A stretch of DNA of 20,014 nt. Origin: a virus. The stretch covers positions 1 through 20,014 of IMG/VR virus record IMGVR_UViG_3300025110_000177. One strand, written 5' to 3'. Of this stretch, positions 2,480-19,442 are shown one piece after another. The notes beneath the pieces were generated by a model. The model did not search any database, had not been told where the DNA came from, and saw nothing but the letters and a program-made list of their open reading frames with translations. A program made the position numbers and the translations under genes. Position 1 is the first letter of the stretch, and each line of letters begins with the position of its first letter.

Positions 2480-2847
2480 AAACTGAATTGCTTTTGGGTT
2501 TGCCTTATCGTTTAGGGTCAAATCCAGATCAACATAAAGCTGCTGATTGTGTCTCGTTAGCTGGACAAGTTATTAGAAATTATGGAATAGATTTCCCTAC
2601 TCAAGAACGTGCTTGGTATAGGCGTTTAAGAAAAAAAGACTATAAAGTGTTTTCTGATGAATTAAAAAAGTGGGGAAGAGAGACAACAACCGCTAATATT
2701 GGTGTTGTAGCTCTGTGCAAAGCAGAAAAAGGCTATGGTATGGCTGTCTATTGGAAAAACGGTTGGCTATCATTCGTAAAAAAGACGGTTCAATGGAGTC
2801 CTCTAACCTCTTTGGACGTTATCGAACTTTATTACCCTACGAAGTAG
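2476..2847 (+). CDS. NlpC/P60-like tail protein (lambda gpK-like), apparently lacking the catalytic His
   Basis: A 123-residue protein in the position of lambda K, between the gpL-like and gpJ-like genes. Residues 10-30 (PYRLGSNPD...ADCVSLAG) match the entry of an NlpC/P60 cysteine peptidase domain, with Cys25 as the expected nucleophile. In active members a GDV segment and an HVGIY-type strand carrying the catalytic His come later. The matching strand here is 'GYGMAVYWKNGWLSF' (about 86-100), with Gly or Met where His is expected and no later candidate. His20 is the only His in the protein and precedes the Cys. Lambda gpK also has an N-terminal JAMM metallopeptidase domain, which is absent. 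Most likely a structural tail-tip plug derived from a peptidoglycan hydrolase. The start overlaps the preceding stop as ATGA, and the 3' end overlaps the start of the hub gene by about 55 bases. Confidence 0.65.
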   Translation: MKTELLLGLPYRLGSNPDQHKAADCVSLAGQVIRNYGIDFPTQERAWYRRLRKKDYKVFSDELKKWGRETTTANIGVVALCKAEKGYGMAVYWKNGWLSFVKKTVQWSPLTSLDVIELYYPTK

Positions 2848-5800
2848 AGCTATGTAATGCTCTTGGAATAACTGATAAAGAATATTTAGAGTTTGTAGAT
2901 TTAACTTTTCAATATCACCAAGACTCAAGAAAGGGTTATGAATTAATTCCAGATGTTAGATGTGATCCAGTAAGCCTATTCTTGATGGCTGTTAATGCAG
3001 GCTTTTGGACAAAGGTAGCGATTACTGTTGCTATTGCTGCTGTTACTTATCTTCTTTCTGACAAAGATAGAGGTAAAGAAGCTCCTAATTTAAGTGTAGG
3101 AGGGGTTCAAGGTAGAAGTAGATTTAATCCTGTAAGTGGATTTGAAGCTCAACAAGATTTAGCTGTTTTAGGTTCTTTTATTCCTTTAGTTTATGCAAGG
3201 TTAGGAGTAAGAGTCTCAAGCCAGTTGATTTGGTCGCAAATCCGTTCAACACAGTATGGTCAAGAAATTAATGCTATATGTTTGTTTTCTCAAGGTGAAC
3301 TAGGTAGCAAACCAGCTTTTAATACTTTTGCAGTAGGTGAAGCATTTTTAGATAACTTTCCACCATCAAAGTTAAGACTTTATTTTACTAAAGGTGGTCG
3401 TGCTAATACAAAAACTAGTACTACTACACAGCAAGAATTTCTTAATGAATCAAACCGTTTAAACAATTCTGATTGGTATGAAGAATATACAAAGGCTGCT
3501 AATACTAATAATTACGCTGCACGAGGTCTTAGAGAGTATGACGATAATGATCCTTTTATGGTCAAGCTTTTAAAAGATTATCCTACTGTTGATAGTAAAT
3601 TTGAATGGAAACCAAGTTTTTCAAGTGTAAAAACTCCTTTTTCTAATAGTACCTTTGGACTTTATGCTCCAGTGTCTAATGGTAATGCTTATAAAATTCC
3701 TTGGGAATTATTGTTATTTCAAAAAGATATGGAGAGTACACCCAGAAGGGATCAGCGTGAAAAACGGAAAAAAATGATTCATTTTTTCCCAAGATATGTT
3801 GCGTTACAAGATATTGCTTACCACTCTGAGTCTGATCCTGAGATAAGGCTAGCACATCGAGAAGTATTACCTGGTCATGATTTTGATGTAATTATTGAGA
3901 AACAAGAGAATGAAGAAGCTTGGATAAAAGATACAGAAGATATAGATCCAGATCGTACAAAAAGATGGGATAAATTTTCTCCGTGGGGGAGTGGAGATGC
4001 AAAAGCTGTTGCTGATACAACAAGAGAAAATTCCGATAGGACTATGGCTTTAGGTGAGCAATACATGGTTGGCTCGGCTTTGGCAACGGTTTATCTAGAA
4101 ACTGATGGAAATGTTTGGAGTCCTTATCCTTGGTTTGATGAAAATGGAAATCCTCAATACACAGGGAAAGCATACAAGATGAAAGTTGATGAAGGTGGAT
4201 GGATGAGTTTTGCTGGGATAACCGATGCACAAATGCCTTATGAGTCTTTAGTCCTTCAGAAATGTGCTATTGGTTCATTCTCGAATACTAGAGAATGTGA
4301 TGTAACTGAAATAGGAATTAAAAGTACGGTTTGGAGAAAAATTAATGGGATACAAAATCTAAATGAATGTCCTAGTCGACAAAGAATTGTTAGTTATGAA
4401 GGTGATAATGGTAATATTCAATTAGGTTCTGTAAATAAGTTTGTTAATCGTTTAAGTTTTTTTAAATTACAAGCAAAAATATTAGATACTGATACTCCTT
4501 GGAAGGATTTATGTAACAAGGTTTTTTGTGTAAAAGGCTCCACAAATCAACCTCAATATAATTCACTAAATGTAAAACATAAAAATCGAAAAACTCTTGA
4601 ATATCGTTTTTTGCCTGTAGCTGGTAATGTCGTTTTAAATGATTTAGCAGATAGACAAGTTTATCTTTTAAATTATGCTTCTGCTCTTCATACTCAGCCA
4701 TTTGAATTATCGGATGGCATAAGAGACAATGCTGCAACAGGTGTACTTTATTTTCATGGTTATCTTGAAAATTTGCCAACTAGTATAGCCGTAGGAAATG
4801 GGTTTACTAATAATATTGAATGGGTAAGAGGTGGTTTAGGTGCTGGTTATGATTCAGAAGGCAATCCTACTAATCCTGGTGAAGGTGTTTCAAGTTTTGG
4901 GCCACTTGAACAGGGTGAAGATAATTGGCAAGCTTTAGATTTTTCTTATCTAGATAGAGATTTTGAACCAGAAATAATTACAACTGCTCTGAACAGAGCT
5001 AGAAATAATGGAAATGGTGTTCCTTGGAATAAAGGAGGTTCAAATTCAGAGGTAAATGATTATGTCTACTGGGGAACTGGGCCAGGTACTGATCCTGATG
5101 GGGCAAATTACGGCAACTGGGGAAGATCAGGTTTTGCAAGTCCTAGCATAAGAAATTTTAAAGGTACTCCGTCAACCGGCGGTAATTCATATTTTAGTCG
5201 TTATCACGGTGTTGAATTAGTAGCAACATGGACTGGAGGGGGGATTTGGGGGATAAATTTTTGGCGTTGGGACTATTATTTTGGCGACACGATAATTCCT
5301 CACGCTTCTCTCGCTTCAATAGACGCTCTTGGAACTGAAAACAGCGCAAATACAGAAAATGTTGAGAAGTGGACACAGGCAATAGAAGAACAAGATGGGA
5401 GAGGAAATCGTACAGGTAGATTTCATCGTTTTAGAGTTGCTAGAAATCCAGAAGCTAATAATGGTGGTTTGGATTGGAGATTTAGTAACGTAACGGATGG
5501 CATAAAAACTCAGCATTATGGAATTGAAGTTCAAGTACAAGATTCAAATGCACCTGTCCCTGTCGTCACCAATCACGCTACTGTTCCTTATGGAACAAAT
5601 ACAGAGACTAACAGAGCCGTTACTGGAACTGGATTTAGGATCGAAATGTCTACTAAATCATGGGTAGATGCAAATGGTAATACTCAGGCTTATAGAACTT
5701 TTGCTACACAACCTGGTCATGCAGGCGTTGGGTATTACACAGGTGATCAAGTTCAAATGGTTGCTCCGTCTCTTGAAGGCACATATGTATTTACTGTAAT

Positions 5801-7334
5801 AGCAGGAACACCAAGAGTAGATCCTGATCAGGAGTATGACGAGGGCAAATTTGATAGTATTAGTGATGAACACAATACTTATTTTTATGATCAAAGAGAT
5901 ATAAATCCTAATAATGCTATAGCTGATTATTTTATGTTTGACGCAGAAGATTCTAGTCATAGCAATAATCCTGAACATGAGATAGTTCATATCAATGAAA
6001 TAATTCATGAAGGGGACACCAGTGCAGAGGCACGAATTAATTATGAAAAACTTGCAATGGCAGGCTTAAGAATTGGTGCTAGTCAAAATTTGAAGCAGCT
6101 CGCTTCTCTTTCTTGTTTTATACAAGAAGGAATTAAAGTTCAAAGGTTAATTGATGATAATGGAAACTATAGAACTATTAATGTTGATACAGGTAAAAGC
6201 AATTTGTTTGCGTCAACGGACAATATTGTTGAAATAGTTTATGACTTATTAACTAATACTGATTATGGTGCTGGTGATATTGCGGGTATAAAAGCAGTTA
6301 ATACTACACACATGCAGTCAGGAGCTAAATATTGTTTAAAAAATCAATTTAAATGGAACGGTATTATTGATAAAGAGATAAATTTAAGAGAATTTATATT
6401 TGAAAATGCTGGTTATTGTTTCTTAGATTTTTGTATTGTTGGTGGGCAATTTAGTTTAAGGCCAGGTGTTCCTACTGATGGTAATGGTCGGATAAGATAT
6501 AACATCACCAGGACCGAGATGGAGAGTGAAGTTAAAGCATTATTTACTGATGGAAATATGAAAGATATACAAGTTACTTTTTTAACTCCAGAAGAAAGAA
6601 AAATGTTTAAAGCAACTGTTATTTATAGGCAAGATAGAAAAGATGGTTTTCCTGAAACTAAGGCAAAAACTTTTGCTTATAGAAAACCAGAAGAATATGC
6701 AGAGCCAAATGATCCAAGAACAGCACAATTTATAAATGATGTAGAAAAATTACCTGAAGAAGTATTCGACATGAGTGGATGGTGTACACATGAAAGTCAT
6801 GCAAAGAAATTTGCTGCTCATGTATTAGTTACAAGAAAAGAAGTCGATCATGGCCTAAGTTTTGAAACTACTCCTGAATCAGTTTTGGGGTTGGTCGCTG
6901 GTGATTACATACGAATAATGACTGAGACGACACATACAACTCGATTTAACAATGGAAGTGTTGATGGAGAAGGGAATATTGTTAGTCGAGATCCAAACGG
7001 AATCAGTGGTAATAAAACTGTTTATTATTGGACTCCAGGAAAAGAAGGTGGTGTTCATAAAGAATCCTTTGTTTTTGCTGGGGATGGAAAAGCTCCAGAT
7101 ATTTTAAGAGGTACTTTATTTACAGTTCTTGATGATACACTGGATGATCGTTTGTATAAGATTGAATCAATCACTCATGGAGAGGAAGGTTTTATAAAAA
7201 TCGGAGCAAGTCATGTTCCATTTGATGATGATGGCTATATGAGTGTTTTGCGGTACACCAATCCTGATGCTGCAATTGGTTCTGATGATTACAATGAATA
7301 TAAAATTCGTTTTCCTGACGTGAATCAACTCTAA
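2793..7334 (+). CDS. Tail tip / host specificity protein, lambda gpJ-like central hub
   Basis: A 1513-residue protein (lambda gpJ is 1132), the expected centre of the siphophage tail tip, linking tube to fibres. I chose the ATG at 2793, which gives an N-terminus MESSNLFGRY followed by a conserved-looking LLPYEVELC segment. An in-frame GTG at 2715 would add 26 residues coded within the preceding gene that look like frame-shadow sequence. Residues about 75-88 are hydrophobic (VAITVAIAAVTYLL), as in other J-like proteins. A 'SGFEAQQDLAVLGSFIPLVYAR' type segment (20-residue core QQDLAVLGSFIPLVYAR) follows near 115-135. The C-terminal third carries hub-type sequence: a FEWNG-like 'FKWNG' segment, DMSGWCTHESHAKKFAAHV near 1326, and GLVAGDYIRIM. 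A Trp/Gly-rich stretch near residues 755-835 appears to be an insertion. The stop overlaps the next start (TAATG). The family call is firm; which part contacts the host is not visible. Confidence 0.88.
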   Translation: MESSNLFGRYRTLLPYEVELCNALGITDKEYLEFVDLTFQYHQDSRKGYELIPDVRCDPVSLFLMAVNAGFWTKVAITVAIAAVTYLLSDKDRGKEAPNLSVGGVQGRSRFNPVSGFEAQQDLAVLGSFIPLVYARLGVRVSSQLIWSQIRSTQYGQEINAICLFSQGELGSKPAFNTFAVGEAFLDNFPPSKLRLYFTKGGRANTKTSTTTQQEFLNESNRLNNSDWYEEYTKAANTNNYAARGLREYDDNDPFMVKLLKDYPTVDSKFEWKPSFSSVKTPFSNSTFGLYAPVSNGNAYKIPWELLLFQKDMESTPRRDQREKRKKMIHFFPRYVALQDIAYHSESDPEIRLAHREVLPGHDFDVIIEKQENEEAWIKDTEDIDPDRTKRWDKFSPWGSGDAKAVADTTRENSDRTMALGEQYMVGSALATVYLETDGNVWSPYPWFDENGNPQYTGKAYKMKVDEGGWMSFAGITDAQMPYESLVLQKCAIGSFSNTRECDVTEIGIKSTVWRKINGIQNLNECPSRQRIVSYEGDNGNIQLGSVNKFVNRLSFFKLQAKILDTDTPWKDLCNKVFCVKGSTNQPQYNSLNVKHKNRKTLEYRFLPVAGNVVLNDLADRQVYLLNYASALHTQPFELSDGIRDNAATGVLYFHGYLENLPTSIAVGNGFTNNIEWVRGGLGAGYDSEGNPTNPGEGVSSFGPLEQGEDNWQALDFSYLDRDFEPEIITTALNRARNNGNGVPWNKGGSNSEVNDYVYWGTGPGTDPDGANYGNWGRSGFASPSIRNFKGTPSTGGNSYFSRYHGVELVATWTGGGIWGINFWRWDYYFGDTIIPHASLASIDALGTENSANTENVEKWTQAIEEQDGRGNRTGRFHRFRVARNPEANNGGLDWRFSNVTDGIKTQHYGIEVQVQDSNAPVPVVTNHATVPYGTNTETNRAVTGTGFRIEMSTKSWVDANGNTQAYRTFATQPGHAGVGYYTGDQVQMVAPSLEGTYVFTVIAGTPRVDPDQEYDEGKFDSISDEHNTYFYDQRDINPNNAIADYFMFDAEDSSHSNNPEHEIVHINEIIHEGDTSAEARINYEKLAMAGLRIGASQNLKQLASLSCFIQEGIKVQRLIDDNGNYRTINVDTGKSNLFASTDNIVEIVYDLLTNTDYGAGDIAGIKAVNTTHMQSGAKYCLKNQFKWNGIIDKEINLREFIFENAGYCFLDFCIVGGQFSLRPGVPTDGNGRIRYNITRTEMESEVKALFTDGNMKDIQVTFLTPEERKMFKATVIYRQDRKDGFPETKAKTFAYRKPEEYAEPNDPRTAQFINDVEKLPEEVFDMSGWCTHESHAKKFAAHVLVTRKEVDHGLSFETTPESVLGLVAGDYIRIMTETTHTTRFNNGSVDGEGNIVSRDPNGISGNKTVYYWTPGKEGGVHKESFVFAGDGKAPDILRGTLFTVLDDTLDDRLYKIESITHGEEGFIKIGASHVPFDDDGYMSVLRYTNPDAAIGSDDYNEYKIRFPDVNQL

Positions 7335-12100: not shown

Positions 12101-15100
12101 TGTCGCCCAGACAGGGTTCCCGACATCCGATTTCACAGGGCAGTTTTTCTTCGATTCTGTTTCTGAAGATTTATACATATATGATGGAAATGCCTATCAA
12201 CCAGTAACAACTTTAACTAAAGGTTCGCTGGTCTTTGGTGGTACTTTTAACGCATCAACAAGTAAAGTTGCAAGTGTAACAACCGCAGGTGCAGCAGCGG
12301 GTCTAACAGTTGGATCTAATGTTCCAACTCCGACAACTAGTACGGATGGTTTGTACTTAGTAGTTGAGACTGCTGGTACTCCAAGTGCGCCAGCCCCAGT
12401 AGTTTCTCTCGCACCACCAGATTATATTTTAGGTGTTACAAATACATCAGGAAGTTCATGGGAAGAAATTGATTTATCTCAAACAGTAGCAGGGCAGGTC
12501 GCAAGCAATATTACTTTTACACCATATGGGCAAATTCAAAGTACAAATGTACAGGATGCTCTTGAAGAGTTAGAAACAGAAAAGTTAGCAAAAGCTGGTG
12601 GTACTGTCACTGGTCAAGTGTTATTAGGTAATACTGCAACGCTTGTTTTTGAAGGTTCTAGTACAGACGCATACCAGACTACTTTAGGAGTTGTTAACCC
12701 AACTACAGCAGACAAAACAATACTTTTACCTAATACTTCTGGAACTTTAATAACAACTAATGATTCAGGGACTATTTCATCAGCAATGATTGCAGATGGA
12801 GCCATTCTTAATGCAGATATAAATGCCGATGCTGCAATTGCATTTACAAAATTAGCTGATTTAACTTCTGCTCAGATACTCGTTGGTAATGCTTCTAATG
12901 AGCCAACATCAGTAGCAGTAACAGGAGATATAGCGATAACTAATGCAGGTGTTACTTCTATTGCCGCTGGAGTCATTGTTGATGCTGATATATCTGGATC
13001 GGCTGCGATAACAGGTAGCAAGATTGCTACTGGAACGACAAGTGCAGTTGGTGTTCTTCAGTTAACAAACGCAACAGATAGTACAAGTGCTACTACGGCT
13101 GCTACTCCTGCTGCTGTTAAGACAGCCAAAGATGCTGCTGATGCTGCTGCTGTAACTGCTAATGCTGCTTTACCAAAAGCAGGCGGCACTTTAACCGACA
13201 ACTTAATTATCGATAATGCCAAAAGTGTCAGATTCTCTGAAGCTGATTCAAATGGCGCACATTATTTAGCACTAAAAGCCCCTGATTCTGTAACGGCTGA
13301 TATTACTTTTACCTTGCCTGATGGTGATGGCAGTTCTGGGCAAAGATTACAAACAGATGGATCTGGAAATTTAAGTTGGGGTACTGACAATGCAACAGAC
13401 CCCACCAAGTTGCCATTAGCAGGCGGCACAATGACTGGTGCTATTGCAATGGGTACAAGCAAGATCACTGGTCTTGGAGATCCAACAGCAGCGCAAGATG
13501 CAGCAACTAAAACTTATGTAGATGCAGCAAGTACAACAGGAAATGCAGCAACAGCAACAGCACTTGCAACAGCAAGAACAATAGGTGGAGTCAGCTTTGA
13601 TGGAACTGCAAATATAGATTTGCCAGGTGTTAACGCTGCTGGCAACCAAAACACTACAGGAAACGCAGCCACAGCAACAAAGTTTGCTTCTGCGGTCACG
13701 ATTGGTGGGGTTAGTTTTGATGGTTCAGCAAACATAACTCTGCCTGGTGTTAATGCTTCTGGTACTCAAGACACTTCAGGAACAGCAGCACTCGCAACCC
13801 AGTTCACAGTCACAGCAAACGACACGACAAATGAGACTGTTTATCCAGTTTTTGTAGATGCTGCAACAGGTTCTCAAGGTGCTGAAACAGATTCTGCTTT
13901 AACTTATAATCCTTCAACTGGAGCTTTAACTACAACAACATTTATTGGTGCGTTAACTGGAAATGTTTCTGGATCATCAGGTTCATGTACTGGAAACGCT
14001 GCTACTGCAACAGCTTTAGCGACTGCTAGAACGATTGGTGGGGTTAGCTTCGACGGTACAGCAGCAATAGATCTTCCTGGTGTAAACACTTCAGGAACGC
14101 AAGATACAAGTGGAACAGCAGCACTCGCAACACAATTTACAGTTACAGCGAATAATTCTACAAATGAAACTGTTTATCCTTTGTTCTCTGATGGAGCAAC
14201 AGGTAGCCAAGGTGCGGAAACAGATACTGGGTTTACTTATAACCCCTCAACTGGTGCTTTAACTTCTACTTCTTTTGTTGGTGCTTTAACTGGGAATGTC
14301 ACAGGTAACGCAAGTGGTTCATCAGGTTCTTGTACTGGTAATGCGGCGACAGCAACTGCATTAGCAACTGCAAGAGCCATTAACGGAGTTGATTTCGATG
14401 GTACTGGAGCCATAACAGTAACGGCTGCTGCTGGCACGTTGACTGGGACTGAATTAAAAAGCACTGTTGTTACTTCCAGCCTGACTTCAGTAGGAACTCT
14501 TGCGAGTTTGGCAGTTACAAATAACGCAACTATCGGCGGTAATGCAACGATCACTGGGGATTTGGTTGTAAATGGAACCACTACAACGGTTTCAAGCACC
14601 ACCGTTGAGGTAGCTGACAAAAATATAGAAATTGGAAAAGTATCGAGTCCTAGTGATACAACCGCAGATGGAGGAGGTTTAACTCTTAAAGGTACAACAG
14701 ATAAGACATGGAACTGGGTTAATTCAACAGATGCTTGGACATCTTCAGAACATATTCAAGTTGCTAGTGGTAAGACATTTATTGGAGATGGTTCAACGTT
14801 AACTGCATTAAACGCATCAAACATTGCCTCTGGGACTATTGCAGCAGCTAGGGTTCCAACTCTTAATCAAAACACAACGGGATCAGCAGCAACATTAACA
14901 ACAGCAAGAACTATTAACGGGATAAGCTTTGACGGTTCTGCGGATATAACGGTTACTGCTGCTGCTGGAACACTTACAGGAACAGAATTAAAAAGCACAG
15001 TTGTTACATCAAGCTTGACTTCTGTTGGAACGTTAACTGGTTTAACAAGCACTGGAAATATTGATATTGATAGTGATTCAACAAAATTAAGGTTAGGGGC

Positions 15101-15839
15101 AGATCAAGACGCAGAACTATATCACACTGGAGCGCATGGATACTTAGTAAACAGTACAGGTAATTTTAATTTAAGAACTGGCGGCACTTTATGGATAGAT
15201 AATGCAGCAGGTAACGAAACATACATAAAAGCTATTGAAAACGGAGCCGTAGAGTTATTTCACAATAATATTAAAACTTTTGCAACTGCCAGTCATGGCA
15301 TAGAAGTTTTAGGCCCTGAAGGAGGCACTGCAAATGTTTATATGTATGCTGACGAAGGAGATGATAATGCAGATAAATGGGGATTAGAAGTAGATACAAG
15401 CGGTAATTTTAATATACGCAACTACTCAACAGGGTCTTGGGTTGACGGTTTAACTTTAGACGGCTCAAATAACGCCACGTTTGCTGGAACGGTATCAGAC
15501 AGCAAAGGCAACCTGCGTTCTATACCTCAAAAAACTGGTTCAACAGGTACTGCTACTTATGAATTAGTTGCTGCTGATGCTGGCAAACATGTTTATCATG
15601 CGTCAACAGGAAGCATAACTGTACCACCAACGTCAGGAATCTTTAGTGCTGGAGATGCCATAACAATATTAAATGGACACGCCTCTGGTACGTTTCAAAT
15701 CCTTCAAGGTACTGGTGTTACTATTTGGAACTCTGGCGATGGAACTTCAGGTACACGCACTGTAGGTGTAAAAGGAATGTGTACATTACTTTGTGTTGGG
15801 AGTAATGGGTACTACATTTCAGGTGCAGGGTTGACATAA
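9171..15839 (+). CDS. Giant modular tail fibre protein with ten-residue repeat shaft
   Basis: A 2222-residue, Ala/Thr-rich, almost Cys-free protein. Residues 1-70 (MADLQISQLPALAEADLAAG start) form a likely tail-attachment head. Residues 78-774 are 69 tandem ten-residue units of the type TAxxIAxxAV. From about 783 come three copies of a G-x-V/I-T-S-T-x-L-x-x-SDLP module, then a segment near 974-1013 (FFFDSVSEDLYIYDG). AGGT-type fibre repeats follow near 1140, 1334 and 1414, with a phage tail fibre repeat (GVLQLTNATDSTS) near 1293. Next are repeated TGNAATATALATAR / IGGVSFDG modules (about 1457-1745) and two LTGTELKSTVVTSSLTSVG copies (about 1755 and 1933). Near 1790-1865 lies a segment with GDLVVNGTTTTV and DKNIEIG, then an AELYHTGAHGYLV region. 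The protein ends in a beta-rich tip (2130-2222). No S74 chaperone ending is seen. Probably a trimeric fibre; host binding is inferred. Confidence 0.85.
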   Translation: MADLQISQLPALAEADLAAGDELAVVDGSASETKRITAKALVEKGVALIDAGSIPGSALSTLGVNTVVTASITNLNVTAAKIANATITATQIADATITGAKLVDDTVTATQIAANAIGASELADDAVDSAAIAANAVTTVKIADANVTYAKLSLSDGDIAGAKIATGGITALQIAANAVGASELADNAVDTAAIANLAVTSGKLAANSITVDKITDGVITGAKLVTGTITATQIAANAVTASELANDAVDTNAILDDAVTAAKLAAGAVDTTALGTAAVTGAKIANTTITAANIVAGTITSAELAADSVGASEIAANAVGASELADDAVDTNAIANSAVTGDKIANTTITYAKLSLSDGDIPAAKIVANSLTAGQIAANAIGASELADNAVDTAAIADDAVTGAKIAATTITGANIAATTIAAGNIVANTITASEIAANAIGSSELADNAVDTAAIANAAITNDKIANTTVAYAKLNLSDGDIAGAKITSNSITATQIAADAVGASELANNAVDTNALADDAVTGAKIAAATIEGANIVTGTITATQLAADSVGASEIAANAVGASELADDAVDTAAIANLAVTAAKIANTTITAAKLNLSAGDIDGTKIAANSLTASQIAANAITASELADDAVDTAAIANNAVTAAKIATNAVTATELADNAVDTAAIADGAVTAVKISGTLNTATIADSAITTAKIADDAVTSAKLGANAVDAAALANDAVDSTAILDGAVLEAKIGTGAVTNAKIGANAVTAAKITDGTITAAKLATANIDRSLNVASGNLGINNVISAGIRSGITYNAQGLITSTTALVASDLPVATATAVGGVSIVSTGGLTVTGAGALSIATTTTASTGTKVTFNNFGQVTSTATLAASDLPVATASAVGGVSVPTGGPLSVDGNGAITVANSGVTAGVGTKVTVDAKGRVTNLATLADSDLPNHSAALITSGSIPTARIANDAITGTKLANASTTIFGSVAQTGFPTSDFTGQFFFDSVSEDLYIYDGNAYQPVTTLTKGSLVFGGTFNASTSKVASVTTAGAAAGLTVGSNVPTPTTSTDGLYLVVETAGTPSAPAPVVSLAPPDYILGVTNTSGSSWEEIDLSQTVAGQVASNITFTPYGQIQSTNVQDALEELETEKLAKAGGTVTGQVLLGNTATLVFEGSSTDAYQTTLGVVNPTTADKTILLPNTSGTLITTNDSGTISSAMIADGAILNADINADAAIAFTKLADLTSAQILVGNASNEPTSVAVTGDIAITNAGVTSIAAGVIVDADISGSAAITGSKIATGTTSAVGVLQLTNATDSTSATTAATPAAVKTAKDAADAAAVTANAALPKAGGTLTDNLIIDNAKSVRFSEADSNGAHYLALKAPDSVTADITFTLPDGDGSSGQRLQTDGSGNLSWGTDNATDPTKLPLAGGTMTGAIAMGTSKITGLGDPTAAQDAATKTYVDAASTTGNAATATALATARTIGGVSFDGTANIDLPGVNAAGNQNTTGNAATATKFASAVTIGGVSFDGSANITLPGVNASGTQDTSGTAALATQFTVTANDTTNETVYPVFVDAATGSQGAETDSALTYNPSTGALTTTTFIGALTGNVSGSSGSCTGNAATATALATARTIGGVSFDGTAAIDLPGVNTSGTQDTSGTAALATQFTVTANNSTNETVYPLFSDGATGSQGAETDTGFTYNPSTGALTSTSFVGALTGNVTGNASGSSGSCTGNAATATALATARAINGVDFDGTGAITVTAAAGTLTGTELKSTVVTSSLTSVGTLASLAVTNNATIGGNATITGDLVVNGTTTTVSSTTVEVADKNIEIGKVSSPSDTTADGGGLTLKGTTDKTWNWVNSTDAWTSSEHIQVASGKTFIGDGSTLTALNASNIASGTIAAARVPTLNQNTTGSAATLTTARTINGISFDGSADITVTAAAGTLTGTELKSTVVTSSLTSVGTLTGLTSTGNIDIDSDSTKLRLGADQDAELYHTGAHGYLVNSTGNFNLRTGGTLWIDNAAGNETYIKAIENGAVELFHNNIKTFATASHGIEVLGPEGGTANVYMYADEGDDNADKWGLEVDTSGNFNIRNYSTGSWVDGLTLDGSNNATFAGTVSDSKGNLRSIPQKTGSTGTATYELVAADAGKHVYHASTGSITVPPTSGIFSAGDAITILNGHASGTFQILQGTGVTIWNSGDGTSGTRTVGVKGMCTLLCVGSNGYYISGAGLT
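9610..9640 (+). repeat. 31-base exact direct repeat, copy 1
   Basis: Bases 9610-9640 are identical to 10216-10246, 606 bases downstream. They code for the TYAKLSLSDG interruption of the fibre shaft. Flanking bases differ on both sides. This is the longest exact DNA repeat I noticed in the fibre gene. Confidence 0.9.
10216..10246 (+). repeat. 31-base exact direct repeat, copy 2
   Basis: Identical to 9610-9640. The spacing (606 bases, 202 codons) keeps the reading frame, so recombination between the copies would delete or duplicate twenty ten-residue units without a frameshift. Confidence 0.9.
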
Positions 15840-15879: not shown

Positions 15880-18411
15880 ATGAGTCCTATTCAACAAATG
15901 CTTTTAGGTGGTGGTGCAGTTGCTACTAAAAAATATATTGAAGACGCTTTTTTGACGTATGTTTATGCAAATAATAATGGTACACAAACTACAAATTTTG
16001 ATCTAACTGAAAGCGGTGGATTGTTATGGATAAAAAATAGGTCTGAGAGTAAAAATCATGTACTCAATGACACTGTTAGAGGAGCAACAAAAATGCTCAT
16101 GACTAATGAAGATAAGGAAGAAGAAGTTTCTAGTGGAAGAATATCTGGTATTACATCTACTGGTTTTACTCTTGGTTCTGATAATGAGGTTAGAGATAGT
16201 AGCAGTAAATATGTGGCTTGGAATTTTGCAATAAAACCAGGCTTTTTCACCTGCCTGACCTACAGTGGAAATGATACTAATCGCCTAATTGCACATGACC
16301 TCGGAAGCGTTCCTGGGCTAATTATAGTTAAAAGAAGGGATGACGGTGGACATGATTGGAGGGTTTTATATCGAGGTAGTGATGGTATCGATACACTGAG
16401 GCTCAACAGAAGTAATACACCAATTCAATCATCTGCTTCATGGAACTCAACTTTACCTACAGCTACTCATTTTAGTTTAGGTAGTCACAGCGACGTTAAT
16501 GATGTTAGTGGTACTTATGTAGCCTATTTATTCGCAGGGGGAGCGTCCGCAGCCGCGACTGCAAAGAGTGTTGATTTTGATGGTAATGATTATTTAAGTC
16601 TTGCAAGTAGTGCAGATCTTGCTCCTGGTACTGGTAATTTCACATGGGAAGCATGGATAAAGCCCGATGACTGGGATCAAACTTATATGCCTTTGTTTGT
16701 TAATGGTAGTGCTGGAGGATTATGGATAGGTAAATTAAGTAGTAATTTTGCTGTGCATGCTTATAACGGTAGTACTCAGTTAACTTATGGAACATTCCCT
16801 TCTATAGGAACATGGACTCATGTAGCAGTTACAAGGTCAGGAACAACTTTAAAATTGTTTTATAACGGTTTAGAGGTTAAAAGTGTAACAAGTTCTCAAG
16901 ATTTTATAGCAGCCACAACATACATAGGAAACGATACAAGTACTAACTATTTTGATGGGAGGATTTCTAATGTTCGATTCGTAAAAGGAACAGCAGTTTA
17001 TACCTCAACATTCATACCACCAACTGAGCCATTAACAAACATAACTAATACCAAGCTTTTATGTTGCAATGACTCATCTAATACAGGTTCAACTGTAACT
17101 CCTGGAACGATTACCGCTCATGGAGATCTAGCACCAAGCAAAGATAGTCCCTTCGATGACACCGCTGGTTTTGTCTTTGGAGAGAACGAAGACCAAGGAG
17201 TAATCAAGTGCGGTACTTATTTTGGAAATAGCAGTACCGATGGTCCTGAGGTTTATCTAGGTTGGGAGCCGCAATGGGTAATGATAAAAAATTTGGACAC
17301 TGCAAAACCTTGGTGTATACATGACATGATGAGAGGGTTTTGGAATAATGGCACTTCTGACGATATAAGCAGTTTCGCTAATTTACAAAATGCCGACTTA
17401 GCTTTTGGAGTAGGAGAATTTACTTCCACAGGATTTAAACTAAGAACAACTGATAGTAATTGGAATAACGATGGTGATGAATACATCTATATTTGCATTA
17501 GACGGCCAGATGGATACGTTAGTAAGCTTCCCGAAGTTGGTACGGATATATTTAATGTTATTGCTGGAACGTCTGGAGATCCTACATTTAAAACTCAATT
17601 TGTAACTGATTTCATATCAGCAAGACCAGACGATTCAGCTTCTTCTTGGTGGACTTACTTCAGGCCTACAGGTACTAATTATCTAGCTTTTAACTCCAGT
17701 AGTGGCTCAGGTGCTGGTGGTGCTAGCAAAAGATTAGACTTTATGAACGGTTTTACTACAGGTGGTAGTACAAATGATACGGCTTGGGGTTGGAAACGCT
17801 ACGCTGGGATGGATTTGGTTTGTTATTCAGGAAATTCAAATAATAGAGATATAAGGCATTCAATGGGAATTGCCCCGACGATGGTCTGGTTGAAAAATAC
17901 AACAGGTAGTGAAGGGTGGGTCGTTGGTTCTTCTGAGTTAAGTAGTTGGGCTGAATATTTAACTTTAAATAATAATGATGGAGAATCTACAAATGCTGGA
18001 TTATTTAATTCAAAAGCTCCAACTGCTACTCATTTTAGTTTAGGAACTCAAAACAGATCTAATGAGACTAATCAAGATTATATAGCCATACTCTTCGCCA
18101 GCGTTTCAGGAATTTCATCCGTGGGAAGCTACACAGGAAATGGACAAACTGGTAGTTCAGGAACCTTTGTTACAACAGGTTTTCAACCAAGACTTGTATG
18201 GGTAAAAAGATTTGATGGTCATGGTCAAGATTGGCCTATTTATGATTCACATAGAGGTTTTGATGCAGATACATTGTACTTAAATGAAAATAATGCTGCT
18301 GATGCTGTTTCAACTGCGGTGGAAGTTTCTTCTACTGGCTTTAGGTTGATAACTAACAATGCTAATACTAATAACAATACAGACGAATATATTTACTACG
18401 CCCATGCTTAG
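15880..18411 (+). CDS. Putative receptor-binding tail protein: six repeated domains plus a LamG lectin-like domain
   Basis: An 843-residue protein following the giant fibre. After an N-terminal MSPIQQMLLGGGAVATKKYI segment, about 95-residue units recur: roughly residues 27-117, 120-220, 435-545, 570-641, 644-741 and 746-843. Each has a Y-x-G-N opening, a VWxK strand (LLWIKN, LIIVKR, WVMIKN, MVWLKN, LVWVKR), a W or H-N rich loop, a TGF or ATHFSLG strand, and a closing YVAW/YIYI/YIAI strand. This resembles the uncharacterised DUF7483-type domain of phage tail proteins. Between copies 2 and 3, residues about 229-400 form a LamG/concanavalin A-like domain (VDFDGNDYLSLASS, FTWEAWIKPDDW, WTHVAVTRSGTTLKLFYNG, YFDGRISNVRFVKGTAVY), a fold that often binds glycans. 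No signal peptide or membrane segment. GGAG precedes the ATG. Surface or glycan binding is inferred from domain type and position. Confidence 0.8.
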   Translation: MSPIQQMLLGGGAVATKKYIEDAFLTYVYANNNGTQTTNFDLTESGGLLWIKNRSESKNHVLNDTVRGATKMLMTNEDKEEEVSSGRISGITSTGFTLGSDNEVRDSSSKYVAWNFAIKPGFFTCLTYSGNDTNRLIAHDLGSVPGLIIVKRRDDGGHDWRVLYRGSDGIDTLRLNRSNTPIQSSASWNSTLPTATHFSLGSHSDVNDVSGTYVAYLFAGGASAAATAKSVDFDGNDYLSLASSADLAPGTGNFTWEAWIKPDDWDQTYMPLFVNGSAGGLWIGKLSSNFAVHAYNGSTQLTYGTFPSIGTWTHVAVTRSGTTLKLFYNGLEVKSVTSSQDFIAATTYIGNDTSTNYFDGRISNVRFVKGTAVYTSTFIPPTEPLTNITNTKLLCCNDSSNTGSTVTPGTITAHGDLAPSKDSPFDDTAGFVFGENEDQGVIKCGTYFGNSSTDGPEVYLGWEPQWVMIKNLDTAKPWCIHDMMRGFWNNGTSDDISSFANLQNADLAFGVGEFTSTGFKLRTTDSNWNNDGDEYIYICIRRPDGYVSKLPEVGTDIFNVIAGTSGDPTFKTQFVTDFISARPDDSASSWWTYFRPTGTNYLAFNSSSGSGAGGASKRLDFMNGFTTGGSTNDTAWGWKRYAGMDLVCYSGNSNNRDIRHSMGIAPTMVWLKNTTGSEGWVVGSSELSSWAEYLTLNNNDGESTNAGLFNSKAPTATHFSLGTQNRSNETNQDYIAILFASVSGISSVGSYTGNGQTGSSGTFVTTGFQPRLVWVKRFDGHGQDWPIYDSHRGFDADTLYLNENNAADAVSTAVEVSSTGFRLITNNANTNNNTDEYIYYAHA

Positions 18412-18475: not shown

Positions 18476-18685
18476 ATGTCTACTATTTCTGAATTAGATG
18501 CTGCTGTTGAAGAATACAACGGTGTTGTTAGAAGACAGCAAGAAGCAAACAAAGCTGAACTTGAACCACTTACAGTAAAGATTCAACAGTTGCAAGGTCA
18601 AATTATTAACGAAGCTAGGGAAGCTGATCAGAATCCACATGTTTGTGATCCAAATGCTAATAACGGTGAGGCATCTCCTGAATGA
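18476..18685 (+). CDS. Small coiled-coil protein of unknown function
   Basis: A 69-residue hydrophilic protein. Residues 5-48 are rich in Glu, Gln, Lys and Leu with heptad-like spacing (ELDAAVEEYNGVVRRQQE, then LTVKIQQLQGQI), so a helical or coiled-coil protein is likely. The C-terminus is short, acidic and disordered-looking (DPNANNGEASPE), with a single Cys in HVCDPN. No signal peptide or enzyme motif. It is the first of three genes joined by ATGA overlaps, so it probably acts with the two small membrane proteins after it. I do not recognise a named family. I recall short proteins of this style beside structural genes in cyanophages, but could not check this. Confidence 0.65.
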   Translation: MSTISELDAAVEEYNGVVRRQQEANKAELEPLTVKIQQLQGQIINEAREADQNPHVCDPNANNGEASPE

Positions 18686-18888
18686 TAAAAATCATAACTT
18701 GGATTAATTTCGCTGCTTTCATTTTGGGAGTAGCGGGATTAGGTGGTGCATTTGTTTTTAGATCAAAAATTTTTGATGCAGTACTCGATGGCGTTAAAAA
18801 AGAACTTCCTTCTTTAGTTCAAGACGCAATACCAGAAATACCAAAAGTGCCATCATCAACTGGCTCTGTGCTTCCTTTCGGGAGATGA
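18682..18888 (+). CDS. Small single-span membrane protein of unknown function
   Basis: A 68-residue protein with one clear membrane segment at residues 4-27 (IITWINFAAFILGVAGLGGAF), followed by a basic and amphipathic stretch (RSKIFDAVLDGVKKELPSL) and a Pro/Ser-rich tail ending GSVLPFGR. Few residues precede the span, and Arg/Lys follow it. There is no lipobox. It overlaps both neighbours by ATGA, so the three proteins are made together. Holin-like size and topology make a lysis role possible, but a holin usually sits by an endolysin and none is visible here. A membrane-anchored virion or assembly factor is equally possible. Function unknown. Confidence 0.65.
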   Translation: MIKIITWINFAAFILGVAGLGGAFVFRSKIFDAVLDGVKKELPSLVQDAIPEIPKVPSSTGSVLPFGR

Positions 18889-19442
18889 TTCAATTCAAGT
18901 CGTTTAACGGCCTGACTTCTTTAGTGTTAGGCGGTGGATTAATCGCTACGAACTTTATGAGCCTTAACCTTTTGGCTCGTAAAGATTCTGGTATCCCTGA
19001 TATAGCAAAGCTTTCTAGTACTCCTTACAGTTCAATTCAAATCAGGAGTGAAACCAAGCCTGATGGAGCAGAGGAGTGGATGTTTAATTCTAAGCAGCAC
19101 GATCCAAAACTAGTTACAACAATAATTGATGATGAGAAGCCTACTTTTAGTGGCAAAATTAAAAAGAAATATGTTCATAAACAAGACGTAGCCCAGTTTG
19201 CAATCTATCCAAAAGGTTCAGACGGAAAACTTACAGCAGATCAAATTGCTTGCATTGAAAAAATGGCTCAGGGTAAATCAAATGGAATGATGATTGCTGA
19301 CGCTGCTTCTGTTCAAGTAACACCTGCTATTGCTGGAATACCAATTATCGGGCCAGTATTGGCGGGGATTTTCTTTGGTCAATCTAGAAAACAGCTAGGA
19401 AGTGTTGCAGGTGACATTGCTGGGCAATGGAACGACTGCTAA
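18885..19442 (+). CDS. Membrane-associated protein of unknown function (185 residues)
   Basis: The protein has an N-terminal hydrophobic segment (residues 10-31, LTSLVLGGGLIATNFMSLNLL) followed by Arg-Lys. A polar middle domain (about 45-125) contains YSSIQIRSE, GAEEWMFNSKQHDPKL and KKKYVHKQDVAQFAIYPKG. A second hydrophobic and Gly-rich segment at 146-165 (TPAIAGIPIIGPVLAGIFFG) is followed by a basic turn and an amphipathic tail ending in WNDC. The topology could be two spans with the middle domain on one side. It starts inside the preceding stop (ATGA) and is the last gene before the structured intergenic region. I recall similar proteins beside structural genes of cyanophages, unverified. 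No catalytic motif is seen. Confidence 0.62.
   Translation: MIQFKSFNGLTSLVLGGGLIATNFMSLNLLARKDSGIPDIAKLSSTPYSSIQIRSETKPDGAEEWMFNSKQHDPKLVTTIIDDEKPTFSGKIKKKYVHKQDVAQFAIYPKGSDGKLTADQIACIEKMAQGKSNGMMIADAASVQVTPAIAGIPIIGPVLAGIFFGQSRKQLGSVAGDIAGQWNDC

Follow-up and report, generated by a model that had tools for sequence, protein, structure and literature searches.

The gene at 15880-18411 of the window, as we call the whole 20,014-base virus record analysed here, encodes an 843-aa protein of six homologous units and one LamG insert, and its relatives have exchanged both the insert and every one of the units. Among these relatives we observed alternative inserts at two places, shared blocks that preferentially end at unit junctions and stay in the same slot, and divergence that is decoupled from that of a downstream gene. 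The product is a probable tail-fibre-associated adhesin, and we consider it likely that this adhesin diversifies by swapping units and LamG domains with the genes of other phages, the parts being joined at conserved junctions.

Gene neighbourhood and domain layout

The window probably derives from an aquatic phage. We found no end repeats in it, and the 20-kb record, which may be a fragment, contains no match to reverse transcriptase (RVT_1). Its tail genes are consecutive: a tape measure gene, the gene for a 1539-aa protein, small proteins of which two have tail-family matches, a 2222-aa tail fibre gene, and then the adhesin gene.

6-1937: tape measure gene
2715-7334: gene for a large protein of 1539 aa
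9171-15839, + strand: long, repetitive tail fibre gene, 2222 aa (open reading frame, translation, PHROG tail fiber families)
15880-18411, + strand: gene for the six-unit DUF7483 and LamG protein, 843 aa (open reading frame, Pfam, AlphaFold2)
18885-19442, + strand: gene for a 185-aa protein, our reference for relatedness (phrog_605, E 6e-12)

The 1539-aa protein has five matches among phage records, all of them to the Synechococcus phages S-CBS1, S-CBS3 and S-LBS1 (23-27% identity over one-fifth of its length), so a cyanobacterial host is possible. The 2222-aa protein has no Pfam match; one of its PHROG tail fiber matches is phrog_892 (E 6.5e-79), and stretches related to it are present in 59 of the 92 loci searched. 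By eye, it contains many short repeats of the type ANAVGASELADDAVDTAAI. The adhesin gene follows the fibre gene directly, across a gap of 40 bases, while in phages CRP-1, HTVC011P and Skadi-1 one gene intervenes between the annotated tail fibre and the DUF7483 gene. Two overlapping small open reading frames, 18476-18685 (69 aa) and 18682-18888 (68 aa), separate the adhesin gene from the 185-aa gene.

Pfam assigns the 843-aa protein to DUF7483 (PF24299; E 1.5e-97, 327 bits against a curated cut-off of 27 bits) and its residues 234-368 to Laminin_G_3 (E 5.4e-20, 72.5 bits against 27.6); up to E 1, only DUF7483 and LamG families matched. A Pfam scan of separate segments revealed that DUF7483 itself consists of three units of ~100 residues. 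The 843-aa protein contains two such three-unit modules in tandem, a1-b1-[LamG]-g1 and a2-b2-g2, with unit lengths of ~90-112 residues. Five of the six units match DUF7483 individually, and unit 4 has no Pfam match when scanned alone.

15880-15936, + strand: N-terminal 19 residues, modelled with low confidence at the start (residues 1-10, mean pLDDT 47)
15937-16236, + strand: unit 1 (a1), residues 20-119, DUF7483 profile 6-102
16243-16539, + strand: unit 2 (b1), residues 122-220, DUF7483 profile 128-222
16540-17175, + strand: LamG insert, residues 221-432, Laminin_G_3 at 234-368, fold match at 223-426
17176-17511, + strand: unit 3 (g1), residues 433-544, DUF7483 profile 223-325
17533-17802, + strand: unit 4 (a2), diverged, residues 552-641, placed by profile only (hhalign to other units, 94-97% probability)
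17809-18105, + strand: unit 5 (b2), residues 644-742, DUF7483 profile 126-224
18106-18408, + strand: unit 6 (g2), residues 743-843, DUF7483 profile 226-327

The N-terminal 19 residues are a possible attachment segment. The LamG insert comprises a variable core (residues 229-358) and a conserved tail (359-432). We ruled out that it is a fusion or frame artefact, given the single open frame and the identical junction in dozens of contigs.

Homology and predicted fold of the six units

A reading of the sequence alone had proposed a six-fold repeated unit, interrupted by LamG between units 2 and 3. Single-sequence pairwise alignment gave z scores of 24 for units 2 and 5, 22 for units 3 and 6, and 13 for units 1 and 2, each score being reached by 0 of 500 shuffles. 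Unit 4 aligned with no other unit in this comparison but was placed by profiles: with 68-sequence alignments of the units, profile-profile comparison in hhalign related all 15 of the 15 unit pairs (probability 94-100, E below 1e-7), the weakest links being those of unit 4, mostly over 53-67 columns. The same kind of comparison found no relation between LamG and the units (probability below 0.5). The six-fold repeat is thus borne out, and the segment scan together with the fold match given below confirms the place of LamG. The longest ungapped DNA repeat that we found within the adhesin open reading frame is only 28 nt at 82% identity, in agreement with the statement of the sequence-only reading that the units are too diverged at the DNA level to be recent copies.

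The AlphaFold2 model of the 843-aa protein (76 sequences) has a mean pLDDT of 89.3 and a pTM of 0.88, and its strand list, read by eye, gives a similar strand order across the six units, with fewer strands in unit 4; we take all six to be small and beta-rich. Residues 223-426 have the LamG/pentraxin (ConA-like jelly-roll) fold (4dqa, Z 20.6, rmsd 2.5 over 188 residues). Module 2 modelled alone reached a pLDDT of 93.6; against the PDB, Foldseek returned weak matches only (best 6d7a_B, E 5e-5 at TM 0.24) and VIA a best Z of 5.3 to 2w38 over 71 residues, neither of them a convincing fold relative for DUF7483.

Relatives carry LamG, another domain or nothing at the LamG place

An IMG/VR scan with the 843-aa sequence alone found no relative, and alignment-based searches were needed. 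The best 80 matches of each alignment search yielded 229 distinct IMG/VR relatives; L-numbers denote the loci of relatives that we fetched, chiefly IMG/VR metagenome contigs. Coverage was sufficient for 221 of the 229, and eight were set aside, among them L029, which has LamG at the slot. The queries were chosen for their inserts, and the loci were taken by similarity to them among the best 80 matches, so the following insert frequencies are biased: 187 of the 221 have no insert over 45 aa, 19 have one in a loop of unit 1 that follows position 25-33 of the a1 model, 13 have one at the b1-g1 junction that holds LamG in the window, one (L058) has one late in unit 1 with a sub-threshold BNR match only, and one (L167) has 66 extra residues between g1 and b2. 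The insert-free class includes two cut proteins, L082 and L095, with LamG ahead of what remains of unit 1.

Twelve of the 13 inserts at the b1-g1 junction are LamG. The other, in L038, is an F5/8 type C (discoidin) domain with a Pfam score of 31.0 bits, near the cut-off of 28.2 bits; it is the sole non-LamG domain found exactly at the LamG slot. In phages CRP-1, CRP-4, CRP-9, CRP-13 and ctnlZ23 the LamG place is empty and occupied by a short linker; the alignment of the window protein to these phages ends at residue 219 (151 for CRP-9 by blastp) and restarts at residues 433-441. The sequence-only reading had anticipated homologues with the same scaffold and either another domain or none at this position, and L038 and the five empty scaffolds are examples of each. 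The pattern that would have counted against it, LamG in all homologues with uniform divergence, is contradicted by the empty scaffolds and by the swapped LamG domains described below.

Ten of the 19 inserts in the unit 1 loop, which we place near residue 46 of the window protein, were scanned with Pfam. Seven are LamG (L034, L044, L172, L173, L178, L194 and L219), two are propeller-like (L155, with weak sub-threshold propeller matches, and L245, by its repeats and without a supporting Pfam match), and the insert of L046 has no Pfam match. Judging from these alignments, unit 1 is a second insertion site. The protein at L301:1768-4899 has LamG at the b1-g1 slot plus a ~160-residue gap inside unit 1, probably a second insert. 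Loci L016 (phage DSL-LC04), L356, L360 and L361 encode proteins in which at least five LamG matches follow one another, possibly a wider pool of LamG sequences.

Diverged LamG versions are swapped between phages

We assembled a LamG-slot group from a LamG scan (79 loci) and the earlier loci: 72 entries have LamG at the b1-g1 slot, or 59 distinct proteins after deduplication, window included. The order of the units is constant throughout this group. Mean LamG identity over its 1711 pairs is 0.72 in the tail versus 0.31 in the core; because the tail is conserved across the whole group, segmentation over 1710 pairs was misleading, and we relied on block and silent-site tests instead. Five of the 1711 pairs have LamG cores at least 0.75 identical (0.80-0.92) with scaffold units at 0.24-0.70, and in four contig pairs, L019/L022, L301/L303, L306/L313 and L308/L326, the LamG cores are 85-92% identical and the flanks 33-51%. 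The clearest swap is L019/L022: LamG is 93% identical in amino acids over 221 residues, with 47% before it and 48% after it, nucleotide identity is 0.953 inside LamG versus 0.563 outside, and the limits of the shared block lie at most nine residues from the LamG ends.

The reverse pattern occurs in L023/L350, where a1 (0.96), b1 (0.91) and b2 (0.94) are alike and the LamG core is not (0.22); this pair calls for caution, as a single metagenome supplied both contigs (L322 and L023 are one contig). The window itself has no near-identical donor, its best identity to any relative being 0.64 for LamG and 0.58 for a unit. All the DNA it shares is a 221-nt stretch (90%) with L313, at the LamG tail (residues 359-432, 16954-17175). 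The four swap pairs establish LamG as exchangeable, as the sequence-only reading had it, and within the LamG-slot group the difference lies mostly in which LamG is present.

Single scaffold units are exchanged as well

The constant unit order and the LamG swaps in at least four pairs would also fit a fixed scaffold, with swapping confined to LamG and the six units passed down with the phage. This explanation is already contradicted by proteins in which a single unit is 81-96% identical in amino acids amid other blocks that are 25-56% identical (LamG tail left out): L305/L323 have a1 in common (0.96), L302/L303 g1 (0.81), L313/L326 a2 (0.92), L331/L344 b2 (0.88) and L303/L313 g2 (0.88). For b1 the example is L292/L350 (0.86), likewise diverged elsewhere, so none of the six units lacks a shared pair. 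Together with the codon identities given below, these pairs make a fixed scaffold decidedly unlikely. The idea of a scaffold with an exchangeable domain thus stands as far as LamG and the insertion sites are concerned, but the scaffold is not fixed, since all six units are swapped too.

Across 286 proteins, counting only pairs with four or more measured units, just 2 pairs reach at least 0.8 in every measured unit, while in 903 pairs one or more units reach 0.8 and two or more do not exceed 0.6. As many as 785 of these 903 mixed pairs concern g2 alone. Vertical divergence with uneven rates, by which slowly changing units merely look shared, accounts for much of this: codon identity at identical residues is 0.43 for g2 and 0.49 for b1, compared with 0.44 for diverged units, and we read most g2 and many b1 similarities, like the conserved LamG tail, as conservation and not recent exchange. 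Hundreds of pairs that have diverged in the rest of the protein retain unit 6 (g2) at 80% identity or above, and its silent sites are saturated.

Uneven rates cannot, however, produce near-identical silent sites in one block beside saturated flanks, nor confine the likeness of one pair to a1 and that of another to a2. In the codon test, which covered the proteins that have an IMG/VR locus (seven, among them that of the window, have none), 50 unit pairs from 42 locus pairs have a codon identity above 0.75 (background mean 0.44). They are distributed over all units: 6 in a1, 7 in b1, 7 in g1, 7 in a2, 12 in b2 and 11 in g2. Silent-site identity is unequal along the gene in the mosaic pairs, which refutes uneven rates for those pairs and leaves them extremely improbable as a general explanation.

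The cultured phage CRP-4 shares b2 with L088 at 91% amino acid identity, the other units being 0.37-0.61 identical; the DNA block is only 79% identical, so this exchange is not very recent. Two or more DUF7483 open reading frames, often in tandem, occur in 23 of the 334 fetched loci that have DUF7483 genes, some of which overlap on the same contig; examples are L040, L052, L088, L142, L232, L270 and L346. The units of tandem copies are 26-78% identical where measured, and a second copy in a locus is a possible local donor for exchange.

Break points favour unit junctions and blocks keep their slot

To locate break points, we used a DNA block scan that is blind to the units (at least 200 nt, at least 88% identity, under 60% of the gene). 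The 95 blocks that it returned come from 89 pairs among 79 loci, and 103 of 167 block ends (62%) are no more than 15 residues away from a unit junction versus 21% for random positions; block ends from related pairs are not independent events, so any p value is nominal. With looser limits (150 nt, 85%), 271 of 589 ends (46%) are near a junction versus 22%. An earlier test, on pairs chosen by unit identity and so biased to unit-sized blocks, had placed 52 of 88 ends within 15 aa (random 0.23). Conservation peaks close to several unit junctions, and the units tend toward variable middles and conserved edges. Shared blocks also keep their register. We took blocks of at least 150 nt and 85% identity, at any coverage, and dropped those whose midpoint has no unit label in one or the other protein; of the remaining 326 blocks, all 326 occupy the same slot in the two proteins. 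LamG accounts for 162 of them, a number to which its conserved tail contributes.

As most of the relatives are contigs assembled from metagenomes, individual mosaics might be chimeras of assembly. Assemblers of short reads would fuse variants at conserved junctions, which is where the break points lie, and the two contigs of L023/L350 do come from one metagenome. In the other 46 of the 47 pairs in the set chosen by unit identity, however, the two contigs have, by our reading, different metagenome or genome numbers. The shared blocks are 86-95% identical in the LamG-type swap pairs, and those listed by the unit-blind scan are mostly 88-98%, with a few above 99%, so for the most part they are not copies of a single sequence from within a sample. 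The b2 common to L088 and CRP-4 moreover involves a cultured phage. We find it quite improbable that chimeras explain the mosaics.

The pattern of exchange between phages suggests a mechanism: by recombining at the conserved edges of the units, phages would exchange their binding parts singly. The conserved junction sequences are probably the sites where recombination joins old and new parts, and joining guided by them would return each part to its own slot and keep the reading frame. Going one step further, the gene may well be a seven-slot combinatorial cassette, whose units and lectin insert are separately interchangeable within their own slots and drawn from a pool that a population of aquatic phages shares, with the junctions as built-in recombination sites.

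Divergence of the probable adhesin is decoupled from a neighbouring gene

As a yardstick we used the 185-aa downstream gene, for which we had 25 sequences (window and 24 loci), 18 of them from loci of the 59 distinct LamG-slot proteins. Over these 18 loci, identity ranges from 0.25 to 0.97 for the 185-aa gene and from 0.33 to 0.54 for the adhesin, and the two are uncorrelated (Spearman 0.06, p 0.49, 153 pairs). The window and L319, for instance, are 0.91 identical in the 185-aa gene and 0.41 in the adhesin.

A hypervariable region at 13,646-15,713 of phage Skadi-1 is given in the available part of a published report (PMC10504331). In the Skadi-1 record, gene 45 (13,353-14,408) and gene 46 (14,408-15,730) lie at this region. 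Gene 45 encodes a full DUF7483 module (E 8e-127) and gene 46 a SPRY protein, and the region spans most of the DUF7483 gene. The part of PMC10504331 available to us calls this gene uncharacterised and does not describe units, inserts or exchange.

Discussion

LamG and F5/8C folds often bind carbohydrate. From the position after the fibre gene, the often sugar-binding folds of the inserts and the variable middles and conserved edges of the units, we infer that the protein is an adhesin and a component of the virion, placed on the fibre or close to it. The ligands of LamG and of the unit loops may be host surface sugars or proteins, and the exchange of parts would probably alter host range, that is, what the phage sticks to. 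The protein could instead be a structural or decorative virion protein that varies for a purpose other than adhesion, such as interference between phages; the sequence relatives with solved structures that we found correspond to the LamG part only, and the fold search with module 2 is compatible with this as well. We think such a role rather unlikely, as the gene lies at or one gene beyond tail fibre genes, the inserts include LamG and F5/8C, and the published pelagiphage hypervariable region contains a DUF7483 gene together with a SPRY gene.

The DUF7483 proteins of marine phages (Skadi-1 gene 45, HTVC011P, CRP-1 gp41) belong to the same family, with the same three-unit module near tail fibre genes. 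The three members from pelagiphages that we looked at (HTVC011P, HTVC103P and Skadi-1) have one module, whereas the window has two in tandem and the LamG insert; CRP-1 has two modules without LamG.

Several known systems resemble this adhesin. In the portions available, gp38 of T-even phages (T2, PP01) is the receptor-binding protein at the long tail fibre tip (PMC12892980), and gp38 adhesins have conserved glycine-rich motifs between hypervariable segments (PMC12529663). By that description the likeness is that conserved junctions flank exchanged blocks in the window family too; unlike gp38, the window family exchanges whole ~100-residue domains and inserted lectin-type domains. It is established that domains are shuffled among phage receptor-binding proteins, and the available text of Smug et al. 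2023 (PMC10684548) likewise reports recent domain sharing between otherwise diverged tail proteins; the tail-protein examples in that text replace one protein end, whereas in the window family every unit of a six-unit chain is replaced slot by slot. Host-recognition genes of marine phages vary within populations as metaviromic islands, according to the part available of Mizuno 2014 (PMC3909814); the variable host-recognition genes are the likeness to such islands and hypervariable regions, and that of Skadi-1, as placed in the accessible text, spans the DUF7483 gene. The name DUF7483 occurs in none of the papers searched, and the titles and beginnings of abstracts that we covered include no paper on the adhesin family, so the slot-wise exchange of every unit and the insertion sites for other domains are new as far as the literature was searched.

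These results outline, at the level of mechanism, how proteins with DUF7483, a domain of unknown function carried by many phages of aquatic bacteria, could work, and they identify the content of at least one published pelagiphage "hypervariable region". If the slots carry binding specificity, host range would be readable as a combination of parts and could be tested part by part.
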